IMG/VR virus record: IMGVR_UViG_3300027749_000069
Location: 30,383 to 94,382 of that record
DNA from: a virus
Strand: one strand, 5' to 3'
DNA: 64,000 nt
Below are positions 12,143-63,457 of this stretch, in pieces (the stretch's first letter is position 1; every line of letters begins with the position of its first letter). Below the pieces are notes generated by a model. That model had not been told where the DNA came from, did not search any database, and saw nothing but the letters and a program-made list of their open reading frames with translations. The translations under genes were made by a program, and so were the position numbers.

Positions 12143-12159
12143 TCAAATGTTATGAAAGA

Positions 12160-12167
12160 TATTTATA
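12160..12167 (+). promoter_or_regulatory. Putative late promoter box, rightward
   Basis: TATTTATA within gATATTTATATAAAC, 5 nt before the ATG at 12173. The same extended sequence occurs upstream of 42805. Confidence 0.5.
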
Positions 12168-12172
12168 TAAAC

Positions 12173-13366
12173 ATGGCTAATCAGAATATTTTAAGATTTT
12201 ACGGTTCCAAACTCGATTTAAAGGTAGATTATTCCGAATTATATGACTTTGAACTATCAAAAGTTCAAATGGATTATAATGAAGAGGTCCTAAATTTTGA
12301 TAGAGAAATAACATATACAGGATTAACAATAGATTCTTCTTGTTTAACAGGACTAACTTCACCTTGGGAAGTAGAGGTAAATAAACCATACACTGGCGGT
12401 ACCTGTGATTTTACTGTTCGTAGAAGAACAGAGAAGGGTTGGACATTAGATTTGGTTTTTGATAGATTAGTGACTGGTACGACATTTTACTATTTAGGAA
12501 TTAAAGATGATTTAGCTAATGGGAATTACGCGGATAATAATTTAACATTTTCATTTACCAATAATAAAAAAATAAAATGGGAATCTTACCATTATTCGGG
12601 GTCGTGTAATCCAGATAGCGGGTACACGGAGTCATATTACACATTAACAGGTAATACTCCTGAATTGTGTGCGAATGGAATATATGACGATTTTAATATT
12701 ACAATCACATTTGATAGATACACATATCTTTATGATTGTGAGATTGAGAATGAGGGAGGATTTAATGATTTAATATTAGGTCCACATGCGGTTAGTTATA
12801 CTGATGAATTATGGGCACCGACGACTGGTGACACAGGTAGTTTCTTTTCTGGTTCATTTTTAGGACATTCAACACAAATCACCACAGGTTATACAATGGT
12901 TACTGGGTCGTTAAATTGGATTACTGGTGACACCAAATATAGTTATGTTGAGGAATTAAATAAGAAATGGGCGGGTGAGAAACAAAAGAGATTAGGAACA
13001 CTTAAAATTTATCATAACGGTAAAAGAATATATAAATTAGAAAACTTTGAAGAAATAATACCATCATTAAGAAAATCTACAAATTCAATTGTTCAGATTT
13101 TTGGTAGTAATGGTCTTAATGGTATATTGAAACAAGTTAAGTATTTTGAAGAACCATTAGATTTTGTTCATGTTAATCATCATTATTTAACATCAATTAA
13201 ACCAAATTATTCAATATATGGTTGTTCGGATGTTTTACCAAGCCCAACACCTACACCAACACCGAGTATAACTCCAACTAAAACACCGACACCAACTAAT
13301 ACTGTTACACCAACAGGAACACCTACAAACACTCCAACACCAACTAATACACCAACACCAACTTAA
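12173..13366 (+). CDS. Lectin-like adhesin/virion protein with a TP-repeat tail
   Basis: 397 aa from the ATG at 12173 (MANQNILRFYG). An upstream in-frame ATG at 12152 would place the TATTTATA box inside the gene, so the later start is preferred. The body is beta-rich with many Thr/Gly/Tyr. Near residues 270-340 a segment (GTLKIYHNGKRIYKLENF ... FEEPLDFVHVNHHY) resembles the concanavalin/LamG-type sandwich found in phage fibres. The last ~40 residues are TPTPT/TNTPTPT repeats ending abruptly at the stop. The same linker joins domains in two other genes here, so this protein may be a base without a distal module. Probably a tail or capsid surface protein; host binding is inferred. Confidence 0.75.
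   Translation: MANQNILRFYGSKLDLKVDYSELYDFELSKVQMDYNEEVLNFDREITYTGLTIDSSCLTGLTSPWEVEVNKPYTGGTCDFTVRRRTEKGWTLDLVFDRLVTGTTFYYLGIKDDLANGNYADNNLTFSFTNNKKIKWESYHYSGSCNPDSGYTESYYTLTGNTPELCANGIYDDFNITITFDRYTYLYDCEIENEGGFNDLILGPHAVSYTDELWAPTTGDTGSFFSGSFLGHSTQITTGYTMVTGSLNWITGDTKYSYVEELNKKWAGEKQKRLGTLKIYHNGKRIYKLENFEEIIPSLRKSTNSIVQIFGSNGLNGILKQVKYFEEPLDFVHVNHHYLTSIKPNYSIYGCSDVLPSPTPTPTPSITPTKTPTPTNTVTPTGTPTNTPTPTNTPTPT
13243..13363 (+). repeat. TP-repeat coding tract 1
   Basis: Low-complexity DNA built on ACACCAACACC-type words encoding (T-P)n with N, S, K and G interruptions. Similar DNA occurs at 43045-43203 and 60480-60630. Confidence 0.85.
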
Positions 13367-17929: not shown

Positions 17930-19041
17930 ATAATATTAATAGGTGCGGGCATTGCTCTAAACTTAAGAGATTTGTTTAGATTCTCTGCCTCACCAGCTTT
18001 TCTTTCAAGAATTTTATCAGGACGTAATCTTTCTAATCTTGCCATAAGTTCTTCAATTAACTTAGATTTTTCATCTTTACCTTCAGTAATTAATGAACTG
18101 TAATCTAATTTAATCGTACTATCAGGAACTTGTAAATCACCTGAAAACTTACCCCATATACGACCTAAACCTTCTTTAGAATAACCTATTAGATATTTTC
18201 TAACCCAATTCTGTGAAGGTTTATTTAAACTACCCCATGTTAATTCTTCCGTCATAACATCGGATGGTAATTTAATAACATCTTTATTATTCTTTAAACA
18301 GGTGTCTCTATCCATAGTATCGTAGTACCAATACCAAACTTTATAATTATTTTTAGCAATAGAACCAAAATCAAACTTACCACCCGGTACATTATAAAGG
18401 TGTACCAATTTCTTACCTTCAGGACCCGCGGTAATTTTATAAGTTAAATCACCACCAATCATTCTACTCTTAAAGTTTCTATCTTGCATTCTCAATAATA
18501 GGTCAAAACCCGGTGTCATAAAATATGAACCAGCGGTTCCAACCTGAGCATACCCACCCACTCCACCGAAACCAACACCACCAAGTGCACCAAAACCACC
18601 TAAAAATGGATCTACTATTGAGTCATTTAAAGTTGCACGTGTGAAGTATAATAATTCGTTAATTTCACGACCAGCAGGAATTTCATATACTTGTTGACCT
18701 TGTGAAACCGTAAAATAGTCCTTTTTCAATTCACTTGTTCCACCAGCCTGTAAACCTACAATTTTGGAATATGAGTGAGTATATTGAGTTTCGTAATCTA
18801 AACTTCTTGTTGTGAAAGCTCTTGAAAGGGATTGTGTATCTAAATCAAGACCCGCTAAAGCTGACCATTGAGATTCAATTAACCAATCACTAACGTATTG
18901 TTCGTATTCTGATAGAGATAACTCTAAAAAGGTATCCATTTGTTCCTGTGTAAGTTCAATTCCACGAACTGGCATCCCCAAAAGGTGGAAAACCTGGGTA
19001 TATAATTTATCTCTTTCTTCCGGTGTAATAATAGTGGCCAT
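17926..19041 (-). CDS. Neck protein, T4 gp13-like
   Basis: 371 aa (T4 gp13 is ~309). The N-terminus (VFHLLGMPVRGIELTQEQMDTFLELSLSEYEQYV) matches the gp13 opening in which a structural-gene protein begins RRLGAP..NVELT..Q. The C-terminal helix region NWVRKYLIGYSKEGLGRIWGKFSG equals the gp13 segment that ends near WG.NL.KFsG. A Gly-rich loop (GGFGALGGVGFGGVGGY) around residue 150 is an addition. gp13 and gp14 close the filled head and receive the tail. It is on the opposite strand and separated from gp14 and gp15 by three genes, unlike T4. A late box lies 15 nt upstream. Confidence 0.75.
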   Translation of the reverse strand: MATIITPEERDKLYTQVFHLLGMPVRGIELTQEQMDTFLELSLSEYEQYVSDWLIESQWSALAGLDLDTQSLSRAFTTRSLDYETQYTHSYSKIVGLQAGGTSELKKDYFTVSQGQQVYEIPAGREINELLYFTRATLNDSIVDPFLGGFGALGGVGFGGVGGYAQVGTAGSYFMTPGFDLLLRMQDRNFKSRMIGGDLTYKITAGPEGKKLVHLYNVPGGKFDFGSIAKNNYKVWYWYYDTMDRDTCLKNNKDVIKLPSDVMTEELTWGSLNKPSQNWVRKYLIGYSKEGLGRIWGKFSGDLQVPDSTIKLDYSSLITEGKDEKSKLIEELMARLERLRPDKILERKAGEAENLNKSLKFRAMPAPINII

Positions 19042-24498: not shown

Positions 24499-26919
24499 AT
24501 GGCAAATTCAAACAGAGTATTCGTTTCTCCAGGTGTTTATACATCAGAGAAGGATCTAACATTCGTAGCACAAAGTATAGGTGTTACAACATTGGGATTA
24601 GTGGGAGAAACCTTAAAAGGTCCAGCTAATGAACCAATATTAATTTCAAATTTTGACGAATTTAAAACATATTTCGGAGGAACATCACCAGAAAAAGATG
24701 GTAATGGTAATCCAAAATATGAATTAGGTTATGTCGCAAAATCTTATTTACAAGAGTCAAATCAATTATTTGTAACAAGAGTATTAGGAAAGACAGGTTA
24801 TAAAGCAGGTAAAACATTCGGTATTAAAACATTAGGTACAGATGCGGATATTGTAGTGGTAGCATTAAGATCAAGAGGACATTATTCAGGAGAAACTTTA
24901 GTATTTGAAGTTACTGGAAATACATCCTTCGTTCTTAGTGGTGCAACATTAACAACTAATCCATTATCTGAATTTGATATTCATGTTACAGGTGCAACAG
25001 GTGGATCTAAAGTTTTTACTTGTAGTTTAGACGTTACATCACCAAAATATATAACTAAAGTTTTAGGAACAAGTCCATATGATAAAGATAGAAGTGATGT
25101 TCCTTTATATGTTCACGAAGTATATCCAAACTTAACTAAAAATTTATATCACCAAGGTATGATTAGTGGTTTAAGTTTTACTGAAGTATATAACGCTGAA
25201 AATGACAATTTTTCAAATCCTTGGGATACACCAATGTCTCCTACTGTAGTTTCTGAAGTCCGCGGTGGTAAAGTTGATGATTTATTTGATGTTATTACAA
25301 TTTCCGACGGTGACGCAGCAAATCAGGAAGTTAAAATTACAATTCAAAATATTAATATTGAAACAGGTGAATTTGATATATTAGTTAGAGATTTTAATGA
25401 TTCGGACGAAAATATGGTTGTTTTGGAAAAGTTCTCAAGATGTTCAATGAATCCAGATGTTGCGGGATATGTGGCAAGAAAAGTAGGAACATCAAATGGT
25501 GAATATACTTTGAATTCTAAATATATTATGTTAAGTATGGACTCTAACGCACCATCAAATGCATTCCCTGCAGGATTTAAAGGTTTTAAAAATGCAGTAT
25601 TATCAGGGTCAACAAAATTAGGTAATGTTCTTTATAAAACTAATTATTTTGATTCAGGTGAAACAATCTATGGTACAACAACAAGTAACGGTGACAAATA
25701 TAGAAAAACATCTTTAGGTTTATCTTCAGATAGTAATTTTAGTTTTGACGCAGATTTGTTCAAATATAAAGGTTCAGGAACATTGAATAGTACTGATGGA
25801 TTTCACTTATCAACTAATGCATCTTCAATTACAGGTACAACATATCAAACAACGGGTTATGATTTGGAAGGTCAAACAGACGCCGCTAACAACAAATTAA
25901 CCAATATTAATTACCGTAAATTTACATTTGCAGTATGTGGTGGTTTTGATGGTTGGGATATCTACAGACAAGTAAGAACATATGGTGATGGTTATATATT
26001 TGGAAAATTAATATATATTTCAGGTCTTACAACAAATGGTGGATTATTTGATACCGCATCAGGAAACTCTGATTATTACGCGTATTTAGAAGGTATTAAT
26101 ACGTATGCTAATCCTGAAGCTATAGATATTAACGTATTTGCAACTCCAGGTATTAACTTCTACGACCATAGTTCATTAACAACTCAAGCAATTGACATGA
26201 TTGAAACCGATAGAGCCGATTCAATTTATATCATCGGAGCCCCAAATGAAACTATTGCTTCTAATGTTATTGACGATTTAGACGGTATTGCGGTTGATTC
26301 TAACTACTCTGCAACATATTGGCCTTGGATTCAAGTAAGAGATACAGATAACGCAACTCAATTATTCATCCCACCAACAGGTGAGGTTGTTAAGAATATT
26401 GCTTTAACTGACAACGTATCTTATCCTTGGTTTGCAGTTGCGGGTTATAGTAGAGGTTTAGTAAACGCAATCAAAGCTCAAAAGAAACTTACTCTTGACG
26501 AAAGAGATGAGTTATATAAAGCAAGAATCAACCCAATTGCAACATTCTCTGATACAGGTACCATTATATGGGGTAACAAAACGTTACAAGTTAGAGAGTC
26601 AGCTTTAGATAGAATCAACGTAAGAAGATTATTATTAAGAGCAAGAAAATTGATATCTGCAGTCGCTGTAAGGTTATTATTTGAACAAAATGACGACCAA
26701 GTAAGACAAGAATTCTTAAGATTGGTAAACCCTATCTTGGAATCAATTAAGAAAGAAAGAGGTTTATATGACTTCCGTGTAAGTGTATCTAATGACCCAG
26801 AGGACATCGATGCTAACACATTAAGAGGTAAGATTTACATCAAACCAACTCGTTCTTTAGAATTCATTGATTTGGAATTTGTAATCACTCCAACAGGAGC
26901 TTCATTTGAAAATATCTAA
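24499..26919 (+). CDS. Contractile tail sheath protein, T4 gp18-like
   Basis: 806 aa (T4 gp18 is 659). Starts SNRVFVSPGVYTSEKDLTFV, the sheath N-terminal arm, followed by GLVGETLKGPANEPI. The conserved C-terminal half includes YWPWIQVRDTDNATQLFIPPTG, PWFAVAGYSRGL, NPIATFSDTGTIIWGNKTL, then INVRRLLLRARKLI and the terminal strands RGKIYIKPTRSLEFIDLEFVIT. Extra length lies in the variable middle domains exposed on the sheath surface. It polymerises around the tube and contracts at infection. The spacing of its late box equals that of the tube gene. A terminator follows. Confidence 0.95.
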   Translation: MANSNRVFVSPGVYTSEKDLTFVAQSIGVTTLGLVGETLKGPANEPILISNFDEFKTYFGGTSPEKDGNGNPKYELGYVAKSYLQESNQLFVTRVLGKTGYKAGKTFGIKTLGTDADIVVVALRSRGHYSGETLVFEVTGNTSFVLSGATLTTNPLSEFDIHVTGATGGSKVFTCSLDVTSPKYITKVLGTSPYDKDRSDVPLYVHEVYPNLTKNLYHQGMISGLSFTEVYNAENDNFSNPWDTPMSPTVVSEVRGGKVDDLFDVITISDGDAANQEVKITIQNINIETGEFDILVRDFNDSDENMVVLEKFSRCSMNPDVAGYVARKVGTSNGEYTLNSKYIMLSMDSNAPSNAFPAGFKGFKNAVLSGSTKLGNVLYKTNYFDSGETIYGTTTSNGDKYRKTSLGLSSDSNFSFDADLFKYKGSGTLNSTDGFHLSTNASSITGTTYQTTGYDLEGQTDAANNKLTNINYRKFTFAVCGGFDGWDIYRQVRTYGDGYIFGKLIYISGLTTNGGLFDTASGNSDYYAYLEGINTYANPEAIDINVFATPGINFYDHSSLTTQAIDMIETDRADSIYIIGAPNETIASNVIDDLDGIAVDSNYSATYWPWIQVRDTDNATQLFIPPTGEVVKNIALTDNVSYPWFAVAGYSRGLVNAIKAQKKLTLDERDELYKARINPIATFSDTGTIIWGNKTLQVRESALDRINVRRLLLRARKLISAVAVRLLFEQNDDQVRQEFLRLVNPILESIKKERGLYDFRVSVSNDPEDIDANTLRGKIYIKPTRSLEFIDLEFVITPTGASFENI

Positions 26920-27243: not shown

Positions 27244-27732
27244 ATGGCAGATTTATTAATGAAAATGCCGGTTCCTTACGAACCGAAAAGAAAAAATAGA
27301 TTTATCCTAAGATTCCCATCATCTTTAGGAATAAATGAGTGGTATGTATTCTCCACAGCGAGACCATCTGCTAAAATTAAATCAGTTGAGATTCCTTTCT
27401 TGAACACAAAAACTTATGTTGCTGGTCAATTTGAGTGGGAAGAGATTAAAGTTCAATTTAAAGACCCAATTGGTCCTTCTGCTTCTCAAGCACTTATGGA
27501 ATGGTTCCGTTTACATGCGGAGTCAGTTACAGGTCGTATGGGATATGCTGCAGGGTATAAAAAAGACATTGAATTGGAGATGTTAGACCCAACGGGAGTT
27601 GTAGTTGAAAAATGGATTTTACAAGGTTGTTTCTTAACAAGTTTAAACTTTGGTGATTTAGATTACTCAAGAGATGATTTAGCAACAATCGACGCTTCAT
27701 TAAGAATGGACCGTTGTATCCAAGTTTATTAA
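27244..27732 (+). CDS. Tail tube protein, T4 gp19-like
   Basis: 162 aa (T4 gp19 is 163). Typical features: PYEPKRKNRFILRFP at the start, ARPSAKIKSVEIPFLN, the strand QFEWEEIKVQFKDPIG, the helix SQALMEWFRLHAES, and LDPTGVVVEKWILQGCFLTSLNFG near the end. It forms the rigid inner tube of the contractile tail. It has its own promoter box and terminator, consistent with a need for high expression. Confidence 0.93.
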   Translation: MADLLMKMPVPYEPKRKNRFILRFPSSLGINEWYVFSTARPSAKIKSVEIPFLNTKTYVAGQFEWEEIKVQFKDPIGPSASQALMEWFRLHAESVTGRMGYAAGYKKDIELEMLDPTGVVVEKWILQGCFLTSLNFGDLDYSRDDLATIDASLRMDRCIQVY

Positions 27733-41729: not shown

Positions 41730-42371
41730 ATGTTAGAGAAAAAATTACAAGAAGAATTAAATCGTTACAATGCCATTAACAAATATGGTAAAACGATGAT
41801 AATCGAGCAAGATGCACCTACTGATGCTGCTCCTGAATTACCTCCGGCAGGTCCTACAGACCCAGCGGCAGCACCTACAGATGATGCAACAGTACCTATG
41901 GACGCCGCAGCACCATTAGACGCAGCGGCACCCGCACCTGAAATGGATAGTACGGAAGAAATTGACATTACAGACTTAGTTGACATGACTAAAAGTATAA
42001 AGAAAGATTTAGAAGATAAACAACAAGACCATGGTGCTATTGTTAGTAAAATGGATGACGTGTTTACTAAATTAGGTGATTTAGAACAAAAACTTGCTCA
42101 AATGGACCAAGTTATGGTTAAGATTGACCAATTAGGTGTTGAGGTTCAACAAATGAAACCTGAAACTCCTGTTGAGAAATTAGAAATGCGTTCTTTAGAT
42201 TCATATCCATTTAATGAAAAACCGGCTGAATTTTTTGACCACAAACAAGGTGAAATGAGAGCTAGCGGAAAAAATGAGTATGTTTTAACTAAGGACGACG
42301 TTGAAAATTACAACCCAACAATAAAAGCATCATTTAACCCAGAAGAAGAAACAGATGAATATAGCTACTAA
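41730..42371 (+). CDS. Acidic Ala/Pro-rich and coiled-coil protein, possibly scaffold-like
   Basis: 213 aa. Residues ~28-75 are low-complexity Ala/Pro/Asp (APTDDATVPMDAAAPLDAAA). Residues ~80-145 form a heptad-like coiled coil (IVSKMDDVFTKLGDLEQKLAQM). The tail is charged and ends ETDEYSY. Such acidic, coiled-coil, removable-looking proteins are often scaffolds or core proteins, but no homology supports that. It overlaps the next gene by 17 nt. Confidence 0.65.
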   Translation: MLEKKLQEELNRYNAINKYGKTMIIEQDAPTDAAPELPPAGPTDPAAAPTDDATVPMDAAAPLDAAAPAPEMDSTEEIDITDLVDMTKSIKKDLEDKQQDHGAIVSKMDDVFTKLGDLEQKLAQMDQVMVKIDQLGVEVQQMKPETPVEKLEMRSLDSYPFNEKPAEFFDHKQGEMRASGKNEYVLTKDDVENYNPTIKASFNPEEETDEYSY

Positions 42372-42726
42372 AGTAAAGTTCCTTTTAGAGGTTCAAGTAC
42401 AATTTAAAATTAACCATTGGCAAACTAAAGAGTTTGCAAGACATAATGCATTTGGTGGAATATATGATGCGTTGGGAGATTTAATTGATAGGTTTGTTGA
42501 AGAAGCAATGGGAAAGTATGGTCGTTTTAAATTAGATGAGGAAAGTAGAACTATTAATTTACAAAATTTAGAAGAACTTGACCTTAAAGGAATGTTAAAA
42601 ACCACTAAAGATGCTTTAATTCAATTTACAGAAGAATTTGAACCTACAGATACAAATCTTATGAATATTAGAGATGAAATCTTAGGTGAAGTAAATAAAC
42701 TACAATATTTATTGACATTAGAGTAG
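42355..42726 (+). CDS. Dps/ferritin-like four-helix protein (tentative)
   Basis: 123 aa, helical throughout. FKINHWQTKEFARHNAFGGIYDALGDLIDRFVEEAM resembles the first ferritin-site region of Dps proteins (NHW..K...F...H..fd.lyd.l.d..D...E), with candidate ligands His at the HW motif, His in ARHN, Asp and Glu in the following helix. The protein is shorter than Dps (~160) and lacks an obvious fourth helix, so iron binding is uncertain. It could equally be a structural protein with the same helix pattern. Confidence 0.55.
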   Translation: MNIATKVKFLLEVQVQFKINHWQTKEFARHNAFGGIYDALGDLIDRFVEEAMGKYGRFKLDEESRTINLQNLEELDLKGMLKTTKDALIQFTEEFEPTDTNLMNIRDEILGEVNKLQYLLTLE

Positions 42727-42776: not shown

Positions 42777-42784
42777 TATTTATA
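42777..42784 (+). promoter_or_regulatory. Putative late promoter box for the adhesin pair
   Basis: gATATTTATATAAAAATAT, 20 nt before the ATG at 42805; same extended form as at 12160. Confidence 0.5.
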
Positions 42785-42804: not shown

Positions 42805-43485
42805 ATGCAAAATAGCCCTTCATCAAATTCCGCATTTCAGTCAACACGTGACAATTTAACGTATGTAAATAATGTTGTAACAGGTTGTACGTCTAGAGGT
42901 GAATATGTTGCATTTATTGATGCAAGATATATGGACCAAGATGTGGTCAATGACCTATTATTATTAGGTTATAGAGTTACAAATTTAACAAATGATATAG
43001 GTACATTTATTACCTATAAAATTGAATGGTCAAGTGCATATGTACCACCAACACCAACACCTACCCCAACACCAACTAACACACCTACCCCAAGTGTCAC
43101 ACCAACTAACACACCTACCCCAAGTGTCACACCAACTAACACACCAAGTGTCACACCAACCAATACAACAACACCGACTCGTACACCAACACCAACACCT
43201 TCCGCGGCAGTCATATCATCACACGCATACACATATGTTATTAGTGCAACTGATTTAGCCAATGCAACGGGAAACACAGACACAACACATAATAATGCTG
43301 TATTTGCAACCACTACTGATGATGGTTCAGGAACTCCAGCGTCAAGAAAGTTCACTTCTGCAGGTGCATATAATCATTGGATTTGTTCATTAACTAGTAT
43401 CACACCAACATTTGGTTACTATAAAAATAACGTATTAGTTACCACAGGATTAGTGAGTACACAAACTGATATTGGTGCTTGTTAA
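42805..43485 (+). CDS. Adhesin A: shared N-terminal domain, TP linker, variable tip
   Basis: 226 aa in three parts. Residues ~1-78 (STRDNLTYVNNVVTGCTSRG ... DIGTFITYKIEWS) match the start of the next gene. Residues ~80-133 are a TPTPTNTPTPSVTPTNT-type linker. Residues ~135-226 form a distinct tip (HAYTYVISATDLANATGNTD ... YNHWICSLTSITPTFGYYKNN). The architecture (virion-anchoring head, extended linker, tip) suggests a surface or fibre protein. The tip family is not recognised. Confidence 0.75.
   Translation: MQNSPSSNSAFQSTRDNLTYVNNVVTGCTSRGEYVAFIDARYMDQDVVNDLLLLGYRVTNLTNDIGTFITYKIEWSSAYVPPTPTPTPTPTNTPTPSVTPTNTPTPSVTPTNTPSVTPTNTTTPTRTPTPTPSAAVISSHAYTYVISATDLANATGNTDTTHNNAVFATTTDDGSGTPASRKFTSAGAYNHWICSLTSITPTFGYYKNNVLVTTGLVSTQTDIGAC
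43045..43203 (+). repeat. TP-repeat coding tract 2
   Basis: Tandem CACCAACTAACACACC-type words. A 33-bp unit (ending in the codons for PSVTPTN) is repeated perfectly once and then shortened. Encodes the linker of adhesin A. Confidence 0.85.
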
Positions 43486-43519
43486 TAAAAATTTTAAAAA
43501 TAAAAAAATAATATAGATT

Positions 43520-44461
43520 ATGATAACAGCAACAGTAGCAAAGGAAAGTTCGGATTTAACAAGACAAAACCTGTCTTATATTAATACATTAATAAGTGAC
43601 GCAGTTAATCAAGGGTTAAATTATATCGTTGTTGAAGGTAAAAATATGGACGACAATATGTTAAAAGATATAGTTGATAATTACAACTATAAAGCTTTTA
43701 AAAGATACCCTGAAGATATGGGTACATATTATAGTTATATGATTGATTGGAAAACTGAAGACATTGAAGCATATTTCCCAAATTATATTTTGGAATATGA
43801 TTTTGCTAACCCAAGTTCGTACCCAACATCTGGATCAACGGTATATGATTTAATGGGACATAGTAACGGTACATTAGGAGGTTCACCAACATTTAACACA
43901 CAATATGGTGGAACATTATCATTTAATAGTACATCTTCACAATATATCATAAATAACGATAATTTAGCTCAATATTTTGCAGGAACCGCACCAAATAAAT
44001 CAACAAGTTTTAGTGTTGTAATGTCAATTAATGCATCCAATAATGGTATTCTTTTAAAAGAAACCAGTCAAGCTGGGTGGCATAATTCGGTAATAGAAAT
44101 TGTATCGGGCACAACTAAGTTTAGTTTATGGGATTCCTCATTAAAAACAATTTCTTCTTCAGTTGCAACACCTTTTAACACTTGGCATCATATTGTTATG
44201 ACGTATGATGGTACAACAATGAAAGGATATGTTAATGGACAATTGGCAGGGTCAAGAGCAATTACGAGAACTGAACCATATAACAATCAACCAACACCAG
44301 CTGCAATATATTATGCAATCGGTCAATCTGAATCAACAAACGCGGGTGATGGAACATACGGTGATTTTACATTAAGTAGATTTGAATTTTTAGATGGAGC
44401 ATTATCAGGAACTGAGGTCGGTAGTAAATATGATTTCCATAAAAATAGATTTGGATTATAA
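43520..44461 (+). CDS. Adhesin B: shared N-terminal domain plus LamG-like lectin
   Basis: 313 aa. Residues ~1-78 (SSDLTRQNLSYINTLISDAV ... DMGTYYSYMIDWK) are paralogous to adhesin A. There is no TP linker. Residues ~88-313 form a concanavalin-like/LamG jelly roll: GSTVYDLMGHSNGTLGG, LSFNSTSSQYI, SFSVVMSINA, the diagnostic TWHHIVMTYDGTTMKGYVNGQLAG, and SRFEFLDGALSGTEV. Such domains bind glycans on the host surface. The gene is 34 nt after adhesin A, is probably co-transcribed, and is ended by a terminator. Confidence 0.85.
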   Translation: MITATVAKESSDLTRQNLSYINTLISDAVNQGLNYIVVEGKNMDDNMLKDIVDNYNYKAFKRYPEDMGTYYSYMIDWKTEDIEAYFPNYILEYDFANPSSYPTSGSTVYDLMGHSNGTLGGSPTFNTQYGGTLSFNSTSSQYIINNDNLAQYFAGTAPNKSTSFSVVMSINASNNGILLKETSQAGWHNSVIEIVSGTTKFSLWDSSLKTISSSVATPFNTWHHIVMTYDGTTMKGYVNGQLAGSRAITRTEPYNNQPTPAAIYYAIGQSESTNAGDGTYGDFTLSRFEFLDGALSGTEVGSKYDFHKNRFGL

Positions 44462-44487
44462 GGTAAAAAATACTTTTAAAATAATTC

Positions 44488-44516
44488 AACCCAGATTTCA
44501 CAGTCTGGGTTTTTTT
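44488..44516 (+). terminator. Terminator between adhesins and the replication operon
   Basis: AACCCAGA (44488-44495) pairs with TCTGGGTT (44504-44511), 8-nt loop, T run to 44516. It isolates late adhesins from the SSB operon. Confidence 0.9.
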
Positions 44517-44563: not shown

Positions 44564-45406
44564 ATGTCTACATTTGACGCAGTACTAGCACAGTACGAGA
44601 AAAACAAAAACGCCACAAGTGGCAACAACAACAAAATGTCCTCAGAGGACAGAATGAAACGTTATTTCACAACCGTATTACCTAAGGGTTCTAAGGGTGA
44701 AGAAAGACGTATTCGTATTTTACCAACAAAAGACGGTTCTTCTCCGTTTGTTGAGGTTTACTTCCACGAAATTCAAGTGGACGGAAAATGGGTTAAATTA
44801 TATGACCCAAAACAAGAAGGAAAACGTTCACCATTAAACGAGGTTAATGAAGCGTTAATGGGTACAGGTGTTGAGGCTGATAGAGAGGCTGCACGTCAAT
44901 ATCGTTCTCGTAAATTCTATATCGTTAAAGTTATAGATAGAGACCACGAATCAGACGGAGTTAAATTTTGGAGATTTAAACACAACCATAAAGGTGATGG
45001 TGTTATCGACAAAGTATTCCCAATCTTCCGTAATAAAGGTGATGTTACCGATTCTCAAAAAGGTCGTGACTTAATCTTGTCTTTAACTTTAACAAAGGCG
45101 GGTACAGGAAAAGAGTACACTGTTATTAATTCAGTATTAAATGATGACCCAAGTCCATTACATACTGACGCTGACGTTGCAAAAACGTGGTTAGAAGATG
45201 AATTAACTTGGTCTGATGTTTACTCTAAAAAGGGTGAAGATTATTTGGAAATGGTTGCGAGAGGTGAGGTTCCACGTTGGGACACCGCAAGTAGCAAATG
45301 GGTTTCTAATTTGACAACAGAAGAAACTATCGGAGCACCGAAATCTTCTACTCCTGTGGTTGACCCACAAGATGACGCTGAAGTGGATGGTGACTTACCG
45401 TTCTAA
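44564..45406 (+). CDS. Single-stranded DNA-binding protein, T4 gp32-like
   Basis: 280 aa (T4 gp32 is 301). The N-terminal basic segment is followed by MKRYFTTVLPKGSKGEERRIRILPTKDG and the OB-fold core (FVEVYFHEIQVDGKWVKLY; KFYIVKVIDRDHESDGVKFWRF), as in gp32. The protein has no cysteine, so the gp32 zinc site (His-Cys3) is lost. The acidic C-terminus ends in EVDGDLPF, which resembles the DDDIPF tip of bacterial SSB. Coats ssDNA for replication and recombination. No late box; no Shine-Dalgarno. Confidence 0.88.
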   Translation: MSTFDAVLAQYEKNKNATSGNNNKMSSEDRMKRYFTTVLPKGSKGEERRIRILPTKDGSSPFVEVYFHEIQVDGKWVKLYDPKQEGKRSPLNEVNEALMGTGVEADREAARQYRSRKFYIVKVIDRDHESDGVKFWRFKHNHKGDGVIDKVFPIFRNKGDVTDSQKGRDLILSLTLTKAGTGKEYTVINSVLNDDPSPLHTDADVAKTWLEDELTWSDVYSKKGEDYLEMVARGEVPRWDTASSKWVSNLTTEETIGAPKSSTPVVDPQDDAEVDGDLPF

Positions 45407-59420: not shown

Positions 59421-60869
59421 ATGAAAATATTAAGAAAAGATACTGATTTAAATATATTATTAAATACTGAAACTGATTTTCAAACAAATCTCGGTTGGGA
59501 AGAGAATTTAAAAGAATTTGAAACCGAAATATTAAGTGATATTATTAACCCAATTGAAAATTATGAAACGGTTAGATATATACATAAACCATATTCTTCT
59601 AGTGGAGTTACACAAACTGATATTTGGTTTTATTTTTATTTTTTAAATACTGGCGGAATATATGTACAAGATTATTATACCGGTGACGATGAAAAAAGTA
59701 TAACATATACTGAAAACGAACAAATGTTAAAACAATCAACCCAAAGTTTTTTTAGATTGGAGTTTTTTAAAACACCAGGAACCGTTTCGGGAACCACATT
59801 AACATGTGAACCACCAACAAGACAAAATAGAAAACTAATATTTGTAAAAAATTTATCATTACCGTTAGGTGAGAAAATGTTTTATAATCCACTTAATGGT
59901 TATATACATTTACCTGTTTTTAGAGGGTCAAATTATAGTAATAAAGAAAATATGTATTTCTTTTGGTTCCAAGACGAAAGTGTTTTAACTGAAACAAATT
60001 TAAGTGGTACAACGACATTAGATAAGTATACATTTGTTAATACAGGAACAGCAAAAACAACATCATTTCTTGATAGTAATAATTCACTAACTAACATTAA
60101 TATTCCAACTGGTACTACGGTATTTTCAGGGTGGACAAATCAAATGTTTAATATGCCAGAAGTTACAGTTACATACGATAGAAATTTTTACCCTGGAACA
60201 AACACCTTCTTTATGACGGCAAAGTTTTATAACGCAAAAGAAGGTACAATTTTAGATTTCACAAATGATAGTTATAGTACGGGTCACACTATTACTGAAC
60301 AAAATGATATGTATTATCAAGTTGATATTAATAAAACAGATTATTCGTATCAAGTTTATTTTTATAATGGTGAGGTAAAATGTGAAGAAGTTGGTTTAAC
60401 AAACAAACCAATAATGTTTTTTGAAAGAGGAGGTGGAGTGGCACCAAATAATATATTATACCACATATGTTCAAATGTAACACCGACACCAACACCAACT
60501 GTTACACCAACATCGGTTACACCAACACCAACCCCAACTATTACACCAACACCAACCTCTTCATCCGCTGTAGGGTCAACTCCAACCCCAACACCAACTA
60601 ATACAACAACTCCTACACCGACACCAACAAACGCGTATGAACTTTATAGTGCAGATAGATATGAGTGTGATACTCCGTCTGGACCTTGTACTTATGTTGA
60701 AACATTAGATATTGCTAATCCAACTGTACTTAATATAGGTAAGTTCTATTTAGATAGTATTAACGGATATATATTTAATATTATAGGTGGTCCTATTAGC
60801 GGTCCGTATTTATATACAAGTATGAGTGGTGTTGGTACTAATAACTGTAGTTCATTATGTTCAATATAA
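59421..60869 (+). CDS. Adhesin with TP linker and C-terminal tip
   Basis: 482 aa. Residues ~1-350 form a beta-rich baseplate-attached body (FMTAKFYNAKEGTILDF, FERGGGVAPNNILYHICSN). Residues ~354-404 are TP repeats (VTPTPTPTVTPTSVTPTPTP). The last ~78 residues form a Cys-containing tip (YECDTPSGPCTYVETLDI ... GVGTNNCSSLCSI). The tip recalls the end domain of the 366-aa adhesin in general pattern (Y..L, Cys pairs, GGPISGPYLY against GGIYWVFDN), but I would not call them homologous by eye. Confidence 0.7.
   Translation: MKILRKDTDLNILLNTETDFQTNLGWEENLKEFETEILSDIINPIENYETVRYIHKPYSSSGVTQTDIWFYFYFLNTGGIYVQDYYTGDDEKSITYTENEQMLKQSTQSFFRLEFFKTPGTVSGTTLTCEPPTRQNRKLIFVKNLSLPLGEKMFYNPLNGYIHLPVFRGSNYSNKENMYFFWFQDESVLTETNLSGTTTLDKYTFVNTGTAKTTSFLDSNNSLTNINIPTGTTVFSGWTNQMFNMPEVTVTYDRNFYPGTNTFFMTAKFYNAKEGTILDFTNDSYSTGHTITEQNDMYYQVDINKTDYSYQVYFYNGEVKCEEVGLTNKPIMFFERGGGVAPNNILYHICSNVTPTPTPTVTPTSVTPTPTPTITPTPTSSSAVGSTPTPTPTNTTTPTPTPTNAYELYSADRYECDTPSGPCTYVETLDIANPTVLNIGKFYLDSINGYIFNIIGGPISGPYLYTSMSGVGTNNCSSLCSI
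60480..60630 (+). repeat. TP-repeat coding tract 3
   Basis: ACACCAACACC-type words interrupted by a Ser-rich patch (SSSAVGS) in the middle of the linker. Confidence 0.85.
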
Positions 60870-61753: not shown

Positions 61754-63457
61754 ATGGCAGAAATAAAAATTAGTGAATTAACAGAATTAACAGGTGATCC
61801 AGCAGGTTCATGGTTAATTATTGATAATAACAACCAATCAGCAACATATAAAATCCAAAGAGAAGATTTTTTAGTTGGATATGGAGGTGGTTCTAATACT
61901 AGTGGTAGTTCTGGTAGTTCTGGTGTTTCAGGAACAAATGGTTCTTCAGGAACAAGTGGTAATGGAACATCAGGTTCGTCTGGAACTTCAGGTGTAGACG
62001 GTGCACCTGGTACGTCAGGTTCTAACGGTTCAAGTGGAACTTCAGGTTCTAACGGTACTTCTGGAACAAGTGGTTCTTCAGGTACATCAGGTTCTAATGG
62101 TTCATCAGGAACATCGGGGTCTAACGGTTCAAGTGGTACTTCAGGTTCAAACGGAACGGATGGTACTTCAGGTTCTAATGGTACAGATGGTACTTCAGGT
62201 TCAAACGGAACGGATGGTACTTCAGGTTCTAATGGTACAGATGGTACTTCAGGTTCTAATGGTACAGATGGTACTTCAGGTTCTAATGGTACTGATGGAA
62301 GTTCGGGAAGTAATGGTACAGATGGTTCTTCAGGTACATCAGGTTCTAATGGTACAGATGGTTCTTCAGGTACATCAGGTTCTAATGGTACAGATGGTAC
62401 CAGTGGAAGTGATGGTTCTTCAGGTACATCAGGTTCTAATGGTACAGATGGTTCTTCAGGTACATCAGGTTCAAACGGAACTGATGGAACTTCAGGTTCA
62501 AACGGAACTGATGGAACTTCAGGTTCAAACGGAACTGATGGAACTTCAGGTTCAAACGGTTCTTCAGGTAGTTCAGGAAGTAATGGAACAAATGGTTCAT
62601 CAGGAAGTAATGGTACAGATGGTACATCAGGTTCAAATGGAACAAGTGGTTCAAATGGTACTGACGGTACTTCAGGTTCAAACGGTTCATCTGGTAGTTC
62701 AGGTTCCAACGGAACCAACGGTTCATCAGGTTCTAACGGTACAAACGGTTCATCAGGAACAAGTGGTTTACTTACATTGACAGGAACAAAACATAATGGA
62801 GTAATAACTCTAAGCGGTTCAGTACCAAATGGTATTGTAGAAGATAATTTATCTTTTGATGGTAGTACTTTAAGTGTTACAGGTAGTGGTATTTTTAGTG
62901 GAAATTTAAAAGTCAATGGTAATCTAACGGCGGAACAATACATTGTTAGTTCGTCTTACATATATGTGACACAATCATTTATGAGTGGATCAACCATGTT
63001 TGGTAATTCTTCAGATGATACTCATCAATTTACAGGTTCAGTTCATATAAATAATAATTTAGTATTTGATTCTGTTAATACATCACCAACAATAACATCA
63101 AATGTTTCAGGATTCACAAAAACATTAACAAACCAAGGAAATACATCTGTAATTTATTCATTACCAAAGTTAAATACAAATTTAATTCATTTTGATTATT
63201 GGGTTGAAAACGTTAATTCACCATATAATGGTAGAGGTGGTCAATTAACAATACCATATAGTTCTAATGGTGAGAAAGTTGGTATTGTTGATAATTATAG
63301 TAGCGATGTAAATTCAACAACCGCATTTTATTTTGATAGCGTGGTTAATGGTGCAAATATAGATTTAAAATTAGGTTTGTACGATTTTACACAAGGTACA
63401 GGATATACTGAAACATATAAAATAATATTAAACGCAAAAATAACAAAATCAATATAA
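61754..63457 (+). CDS. Collagen-like fibre protein
   Basis: 567 aa. Residues 1-45 are an attachment domain (EIKISELTELTGDPAGSWLII, a start shared by many phage fibre proteins). Residues ~47-338 are Gly-X-Y triplets in a 9-residue rhythm (GTSGSNGTD, GSSGTSGSN) with essentially no proline. A ~225-residue globular tip follows (GSGIFSGNLKVNGNLTAEQYIVSSSYIY ... SFMSGSTMFGNSSDDTHQFTGSVHI, the metallic repeated T-G-S-V-H-I type seen in fibre heads). It should trimerise through the triplet shaft. Host-surface binding is inferred. Confidence 0.85.
   Translation: MAEIKISELTELTGDPAGSWLIIDNNNQSATYKIQREDFLVGYGGGSNTSGSSGSSGVSGTNGSSGTSGNGTSGSSGTSGVDGAPGTSGSNGSSGTSGSNGTSGTSGSSGTSGSNGSSGTSGSNGSSGTSGSNGTDGTSGSNGTDGTSGSNGTDGTSGSNGTDGTSGSNGTDGTSGSNGTDGSSGSNGTDGSSGTSGSNGTDGSSGTSGSNGTDGTSGSDGSSGTSGSNGTDGSSGTSGSNGTDGTSGSNGTDGTSGSNGTDGTSGSNGSSGSSGSNGTNGSSGSNGTDGTSGSNGTSGSNGTDGTSGSNGSSGSSGSNGTNGSSGSNGTNGSSGTSGLLTLTGTKHNGVITLSGSVPNGIVEDNLSFDGSTLSVTGSGIFSGNLKVNGNLTAEQYIVSSSYIYVTQSFMSGSTMFGNSSDDTHQFTGSVHINNNLVFDSVNTSPTITSNVSGFTKTLTNQGNTSVIYSLPKLNTNLIHFDYWVENVNSPYNGRGGQLTIPYSSNGEKVGIVDNYSSDVNSTTAFYFDSVVNGANIDLKLGLYDFTQGTGYTETYKIILNAKITKSI
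61895..62769 (+). repeat. Gly-X-Y coding repeat array 1
   Basis: About 870 bp of 9- and 27-bp related units encoding Gly-Ser/Thr-Asn/Asp/Ser triplets. Many units are identical. The array also yields long artefactual open frames on both strands. Confidence 0.9.

Follow-up and report, generated by a model that had tools for sequence, protein, structure and literature searches.

In a viral record carrying T4-like genes, two neighbouring genes encode proteins that begin alike and end differently. The locus raises the question of what the common N-terminal domain (N-domain) is for, and whether the pair represents two binding tips displayed on one anchor site of the virion, as the first-pass annotation had suggested. 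The window, meaning the whole stretch of 64,000 nt that was analysed, forms part of a 94.4 kb IMG/VR viral record in which T4-like genes for a B-family DNA polymerase, tail sheath, tail tube, baseplate hub and gp32-like SSB (single-stranded DNA-binding protein) were found. The two genes, ORF A and ORF B, lie in a slot bounded on the left by a DUF5856 gene and on the right by the gene for SSB. The features of this region, in window positions, are as follows.

42355–42726, plus strand: DUF5856 gene (PF19174, E 2.3e-18), left flank of the slot
42777–42784, plus strand: promoter-like motif TATTTATA, 28 nt before ORF A
42805–43485, plus strand: ORF A, 226 aa, made up of N-domain, TP linker and beta-rich tip
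42805–43035, plus strand: N-domain of ORF A, about residues 1–77, from the alignment with ORF B and the family profile
43042–43206, plus strand: Thr/Pro-rich (TP) linker of ORF A, encoded by tandem repeats of 24–54 nt
43207–43482, plus strand: tip of ORF A, ~90 residues, with a predicted beta-rich fold (pLDDT 93.7)
43520–44461, plus strand: ORF B, 313 aa, made up of N-domain and LamG
43520–43756, plus strand: N-domain of ORF B, from the alignment with ORF A and the family profile
43775–44458, plus strand: LamG (concanavalin-type) tip of ORF B (Pfam PF13385, E 1.4e-13)
44488–44511, plus strand: intrinsic terminator behind ORF B, also present in relatives whose slot contents differ
44564–45406, plus strand: SSB gene, right flank of the slot

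The N-termini of ORF A and ORF B are paralogous, as had been read from the translations. Residues 14–81 of A and 14–87 of B are 27% identical with 54% positives (BLASTP, single comparison, E 2e-8), and both N-domains, ~76 residues in length, fit the profile built from relatives with i-E < 1e-27. ORF A continues through the TP linker (approximately residues 80–133) into the tip, and ORF B carries a Laminin_G_3 domain (PF13385) at residues 163–300 that scores 51.7 bits, passing the Pfam cut-off of 27.6. The earlier description of A as a TP linker with an unrecognised tip, and of B as a LamG protein, was confirmed with exact coordinates; that tandem paralogous N-domains bear different C-terminal modules of adhesin type is likewise supported. 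Neither protein gave a Pfam match to an Ig-like domain, and reading of the translations found no signal-like hydrophobic stretch at the start of either. The whole 94 kb record holds no third copy of the N-domain. A recent duplication within this genome was considered and rejected, since the two N-domains are only 27% identical; it is also contradicted by each having its own closest relative in the slot of another contig, L005 (A-type 64%, B-type 70%).

The N-domain constitutes an undescribed domain family, of which 37 sequences were aligned. Residues L18, G32, G68, Y73 and W77 (ORF B numbering) are invariant across the alignment, and AlphaFold2 predicts a helix-strand-helix-strand-strand fold with moderate confidence (pLDDT 74). 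No convincing Pfam family was found. A search of the PDB with the 37-sequence profile retrieved no tailspike or gp10 chain (the best chains were unrelated, E 0.78 or worse), and a PDB fold search with the model gave no match (best E 0.42), so that neither search linked the N-domain to a known docking domain, nor to Soc or any other decoration protein. Among viral folds in BFVD, the matches were short uncharacterised phage proteins, several of them from Aeromonas phages phiAS5 and Aeh1, with a best E of 2.5e-3. The profile phrog_5321, which has strong members in these same two phages, matched 11 of the 37 N-domains weakly (best E 8e-4; hhalign probability 62%, P 7.7e-5, also weak), and in phiAS5 the search for the N-domain reached only E 0.017. 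The phrog_5321-type proteins, matched by profile, and the similar Aeh1 and phiAS5 proteins, matched by fold comparison, resemble the N-domain in size (about 85 residues), in an MIxAxxA start, in a GY motif and in an ISW-like end; the similarity is weak, and they are without tips. The N-domain may therefore be distantly related to these small proteins, the likely relatives in Aeh1 and phiAS5 being small proteins that lack an annotation and are encoded close to inh, rnlB and rnlA. Searches of INPHARED by tblastn found no phage isolate carrying the N-domain, its profile matched neither any of five isolates nor an uncultured record of 484 kb, and no carrier was found in bacterial genomes with one N-domain sequence as the query.

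The two tips were analysed separately. For ORF A, an alignment of 16 sequences yielded a model of high confidence (pLDDT 93.7, pTM 0.84) that is beta-rich and includes a single short helix. Foldseek found no match to it in the PDB, with nothing better than E 1.5, and sequence searches of Pfam and the PDB gave nothing convincing; a single member of the tip family matched DUF4859 (E 1.5e-4). The ~90-residue module is thus a confidently predicted fold without a PDB counterpart. Its family comprises 17 IMG/VR loci, nearly all in the slot and after an N-domain, and the tip was not found in bacterial genomes. Two loci depart from this arrangement. At L058 (744–1310) an A-type TP stalk and tip adjoin SSB after a different, short and charged N-terminus, with no N-domain found, and at L194 (1–2316) an A-type tip forms the end of a long LRR-bearing protein, rich in repeats, that lacks the N-domain. 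Because the tip follows another N-terminus in the one and an LRR protein in the other, tips are seen to move between carriers. The LamG domain passes the curated Pfam cut-off in ORF B and in several slot relatives, with carbohydrate binding as its putative activity (PF13385, LamG/concanavalin-like lectin). The match of ORF B to S-SKS1 is confined to the LamG part, and among the nearest PHROG profiles to the LamG modules are those of virion structural proteins and of baseplate wedge proteins.

In order to place the pair among its relatives, IMG/VR was scanned with the N-domain, SSB and DUF5856 proteins, giving 143 cases with both flanks which, as some contigs had been fetched repeatedly, represent 79 distinct intervening sequences. 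Counting anything under 200 bp as empty, 36 of the 79 slots were empty and 43 occupied, and all 43 occupied slots encode at least one N-domain copy. The commonest occupied state (25/79) is one bare N-domain ORF of about 75–80 residues. A single N-domain ORF with an extension was present in 14/79, the extensions being several LamG types, the A tip, and long TP stalks with other ends; in L062 the N-domain is extended by a TP stretch alone. Only 4/79 slots hold two N-domain ORFs. Besides the window these are L099, where a LamG ORF precedes a stalk-and-tip ORF in the reverse of the window order, L005, where a bare N-domain ORF is followed by a LamG ORF, and L021, with a short and a 710-residue N-domain ORF and a fibre-like gene between them. 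The proposed pairing of two tips on one kind of anchor therefore holds for the window and L099 and fails as a rule, since L005 pairs a bare N-domain with LamG, making two tips only one of several states. The supposed anchor stands alone, tipless, in most of the relatives whose slot is occupied, a fact invisible from the window alone. No published description of the DUF5856–SSB slot was found in the open-licence papers searched.

The N-domain is not restricted to the slot. Most of the long contigs examined carry it, usually in one copy. In two whose slot is empty a bare copy lies elsewhere, and a 310 kb contig combines a bare N-domain in the slot with an N-domain-LamG gene outside it. The neighbours of out-of-slot copies are non-structural or unknown genes; on the 310 kb contig the N-domain-LamG gene (L176, 823–1728) has a cyclophilin-like gene on one side and an uncharacterised 423-aa gene on the other. 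No N-domain copy was seen in the shorter contigs with an empty slot, which are fragments.

Comparison of slots with similar flanks shows that whole genes are replaced here, not tips alone. Between the window and L032, identity is 97.9% over 2.7 kb on the left, ending at 42725 in the DUF5856 stop codon, and resumes at 44465, just past the ORF B stop, at 96.9% over 3.5 kb; in between, L032 has about 255 bp with one bare N-domain gene in place of the window's 1739 bp. The same right border was seen in L028, L024 and L023. Eight distinct slots have an SSB at least 98% and a DUF5856 at least 93% identical to those of the window, and each holds a single bare N-domain that shares only 21–33% identity with the N-domains of ORF A and ORF B. 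More generally, in 35 of 80 occupied-slot pairs with SSB ≥97% and DUF5856 ≥85% identical, the N-domains were less than 50% identical. On a tree of 78 loci, built from one flanking gene (SSB) and itself open to distortion by the exchanges, a minimum of 21 changes of content (empty, bare, tipped or two) was counted; for tipped against bare the minimum was 12. The window's sister on this tree, L036, is bare, and bare L047 and tipped L049 have nearly identical SSB genes.

The first-pass annotation had expected that between strains only the tips would change. Among the IMG/VR relatives this is not what was observed, because in all three homologous pairs carrying the same LamG type LamG is more conserved by sequence comparison than the N-domain (88% vs 70% for window–L005, 69% vs 40% for window–L099 and 72% vs 38% for L005–L099), so that the N-domain diverges the faster; in the closest flank relatives, moreover, the gene pair is replaced by the divergent bare gene. 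The slot is a cassette site at which related phages trade whole genes, with empty, bare N-domain, one tipped copy and two copies as its alternative states; recombination between the conserved flanks would be the simplest route.

Candidate expression signals were then considered. The motif TATTTATA occurs in the 70 nt that precede 12 of 53 ORFs, the highest count among 56 8-mers of the same composition (mean 1.9). It precedes the sheath gene at 24499, the tail tube gene at 27244 and a connector-like gene starting at 19041 on the minus strand, and was absent from the window motif scan before the SSB, RecA-like, DnaB-like helicase and polymerase genes. It is probably a late promoter motif. With TATTTATA before A and the terminator after B, the two ORFs probably form one late transcription unit, a proposal supported by these motifs. 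In relatives, bare copies sit closely behind DUF5856 in a gap without TATTTATA, for which reason tipped alleles, those of the window and L021 among them, appear to bring their own promoter. Across the window (12142–60814) the motif is found before many genes on both strands, in sense orientation.

Taken together, A and B look like accessory modular adhesins. Our preferred reading, with a probability of roughly 0.55, is that a T4-like phage carries them on its particle as accessory adhesins, with the shared ~76-residue N-domain serving as the docking module and the C-terminal ends binding glycans, and with the slot acting as a cassette. The LamG of B and the beta-rich domain of A on its TP stalk would bind surface glycans, and where both are present, as in the window and L099, display would be mixed. 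We infer a virion location from the missing leader, the adhesin domains and the promoter motif of sheath and tube type; extracellular-type domains most simply travel on the virion when, as here, neither ORF has a hydrophobic leader. The fibre-like gene in the L021 slot is a further point in favour. The main doubt comes from the bare N-domain as the commonest occupied state. As 25 of the 43 occupied slots encode an N-domain that has no tip to present, the domain must do something by itself and is more than an adhesin mount. The setting of out-of-slot copies among non-structural or unknown genes, the small Aeh1 and phiAS5 proteins as likely distant relatives, and the negative searches for a known docking domain also count against display. 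A stronger form of the display reading, which we put forward tentatively, makes the N-domain a new viral particle socket of ~75 residues, usually bare, which becomes an adhesin again and again when unrelated lectin-type modules are fused to its C-terminus at an exchange slot dedicated to this next to SSB.

The bare copies also invite a reading in which the tips are secondary to a structural or stabilising job. The N-domain could be a small decoration protein, a capsid or tail stabiliser in a Soc-like role, with the tipped copies as accessory fusions. The lead of bare copies among occupied states (25/43), the size of about 75 residues, and the presence of the N-domain in most long contigs, usually single and sometimes elsewhere when the slot is empty, are consistent with this, but the domain matches neither Soc nor any decoration protein in fold or sequence, and the shorter empty-slot contigs, though fragments, show no copy; we regard this explanation as rather unlikely. 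Alternatively, it could be a small intracellular phage protein of host take-over or regulation, its fused tips acting inside the cell or after release by lysis. The slot adjoins replication genes, and both the weak relationship to phrog_5321-type proteins of Aeh1 and phiAS5, located in small-gene clusters, and the top BFVD matches of the same small-protein kind point in that direction. Against it stand the LamG and tip modules on long TP stalks, an architecture typical of proteins that are exposed, and the promoter motif of ORF A, of the sheath and tube type rather than that of replication genes, which leaves an intracellular role improbable.

Tandem paralogues with linker repeats could further suggest that A and B are alleles of a specificity switch within one genome, or recombine with each other, and alternation of this kind had been raised in the initial annotation. 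The data speak against it: the two genes share a strand and, probably, a transcription unit, their N-domains (27% protein identity) have diverged too far to allow homologous exchange, no convincing inverted repeats were found on either side of the pair, and the variation is seen between lineages. Nor did the 94 kb record, which may be incomplete, give a match to reverse transcriptase (PF00078). Phase variation and a diversity-generating retroelement are accordingly unsupported, and we consider such a switch very improbable.

If the display reading is correct, a single slot of 0.1–4 kb with recognisable flanks would read out each phage's adhesin state, adhesion variants could be scored in metagenomes through the many T4-like contigs, and the N-domain would offer a naturally occurring scaffold for display, about 75 residues long and tolerant of C-terminal cargo. 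If the socket proposal also holds, related phages would re-arm by swapping one cassette.

Known systems provide partial parallels. T4 Hoc and Soc are small accessory capsid decoration proteins, one of which carries exposed binding domains. A and B resemble them as small accessory proteins with binding domains that would be exposed and a plausible accessory role in adsorption, but have no Ig-like domain and no detectable relation to them, and their common domain is N-terminal. The branched tailspikes of Ackermannviridae (CBA120, S117) combine conserved N-terminal attachment with variable C-terminal binding domains, and whole tsp genes are exchangeable (PMC11414711, PMC8825819); as many as four tailspikes are linked through gp10-like XD domains (PMC11414711). 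The likeness lies in a set of adhesins with a common N-terminal domain, differing C-terminal modules and whole-gene exchange. In contrast, the Ackermannviridae N-domains consist of gp10-like XD and anchor domains, to which the A/B N-domain is unrelated by profile search; there the N-domain is conserved and the tips vary, whereas here the N-domain is 38–70% and LamG 69–88% identical in the three pairs, and the N-domain mostly occurs without a tip. If the display reading is right, A and B would work like these adhesin sets, yet on sequence grounds they are not members.

Several further observations concern the wider window. With a GC content of 31%, none of 39 window genes has a Shine-Dalgarno-like GGAG, GAGG or AGGA upstream, which suggests a host that does not use such sites, e.g. 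Bacteroidota. The coding sequence of the TP linker recurs at 13237–13366, at the C-terminal end of a 404 aa ORF (12152–13366), and at 60469–60629, internal to an ORF (59421–60869) and ahead of a Cys-containing end. Finally, the first 39 residues of a collagen-like fibre gene (61754–63457) match the fibre-like gene of the L021 slot (E 9e-7), a similarity that marks another N-terminal module in common.
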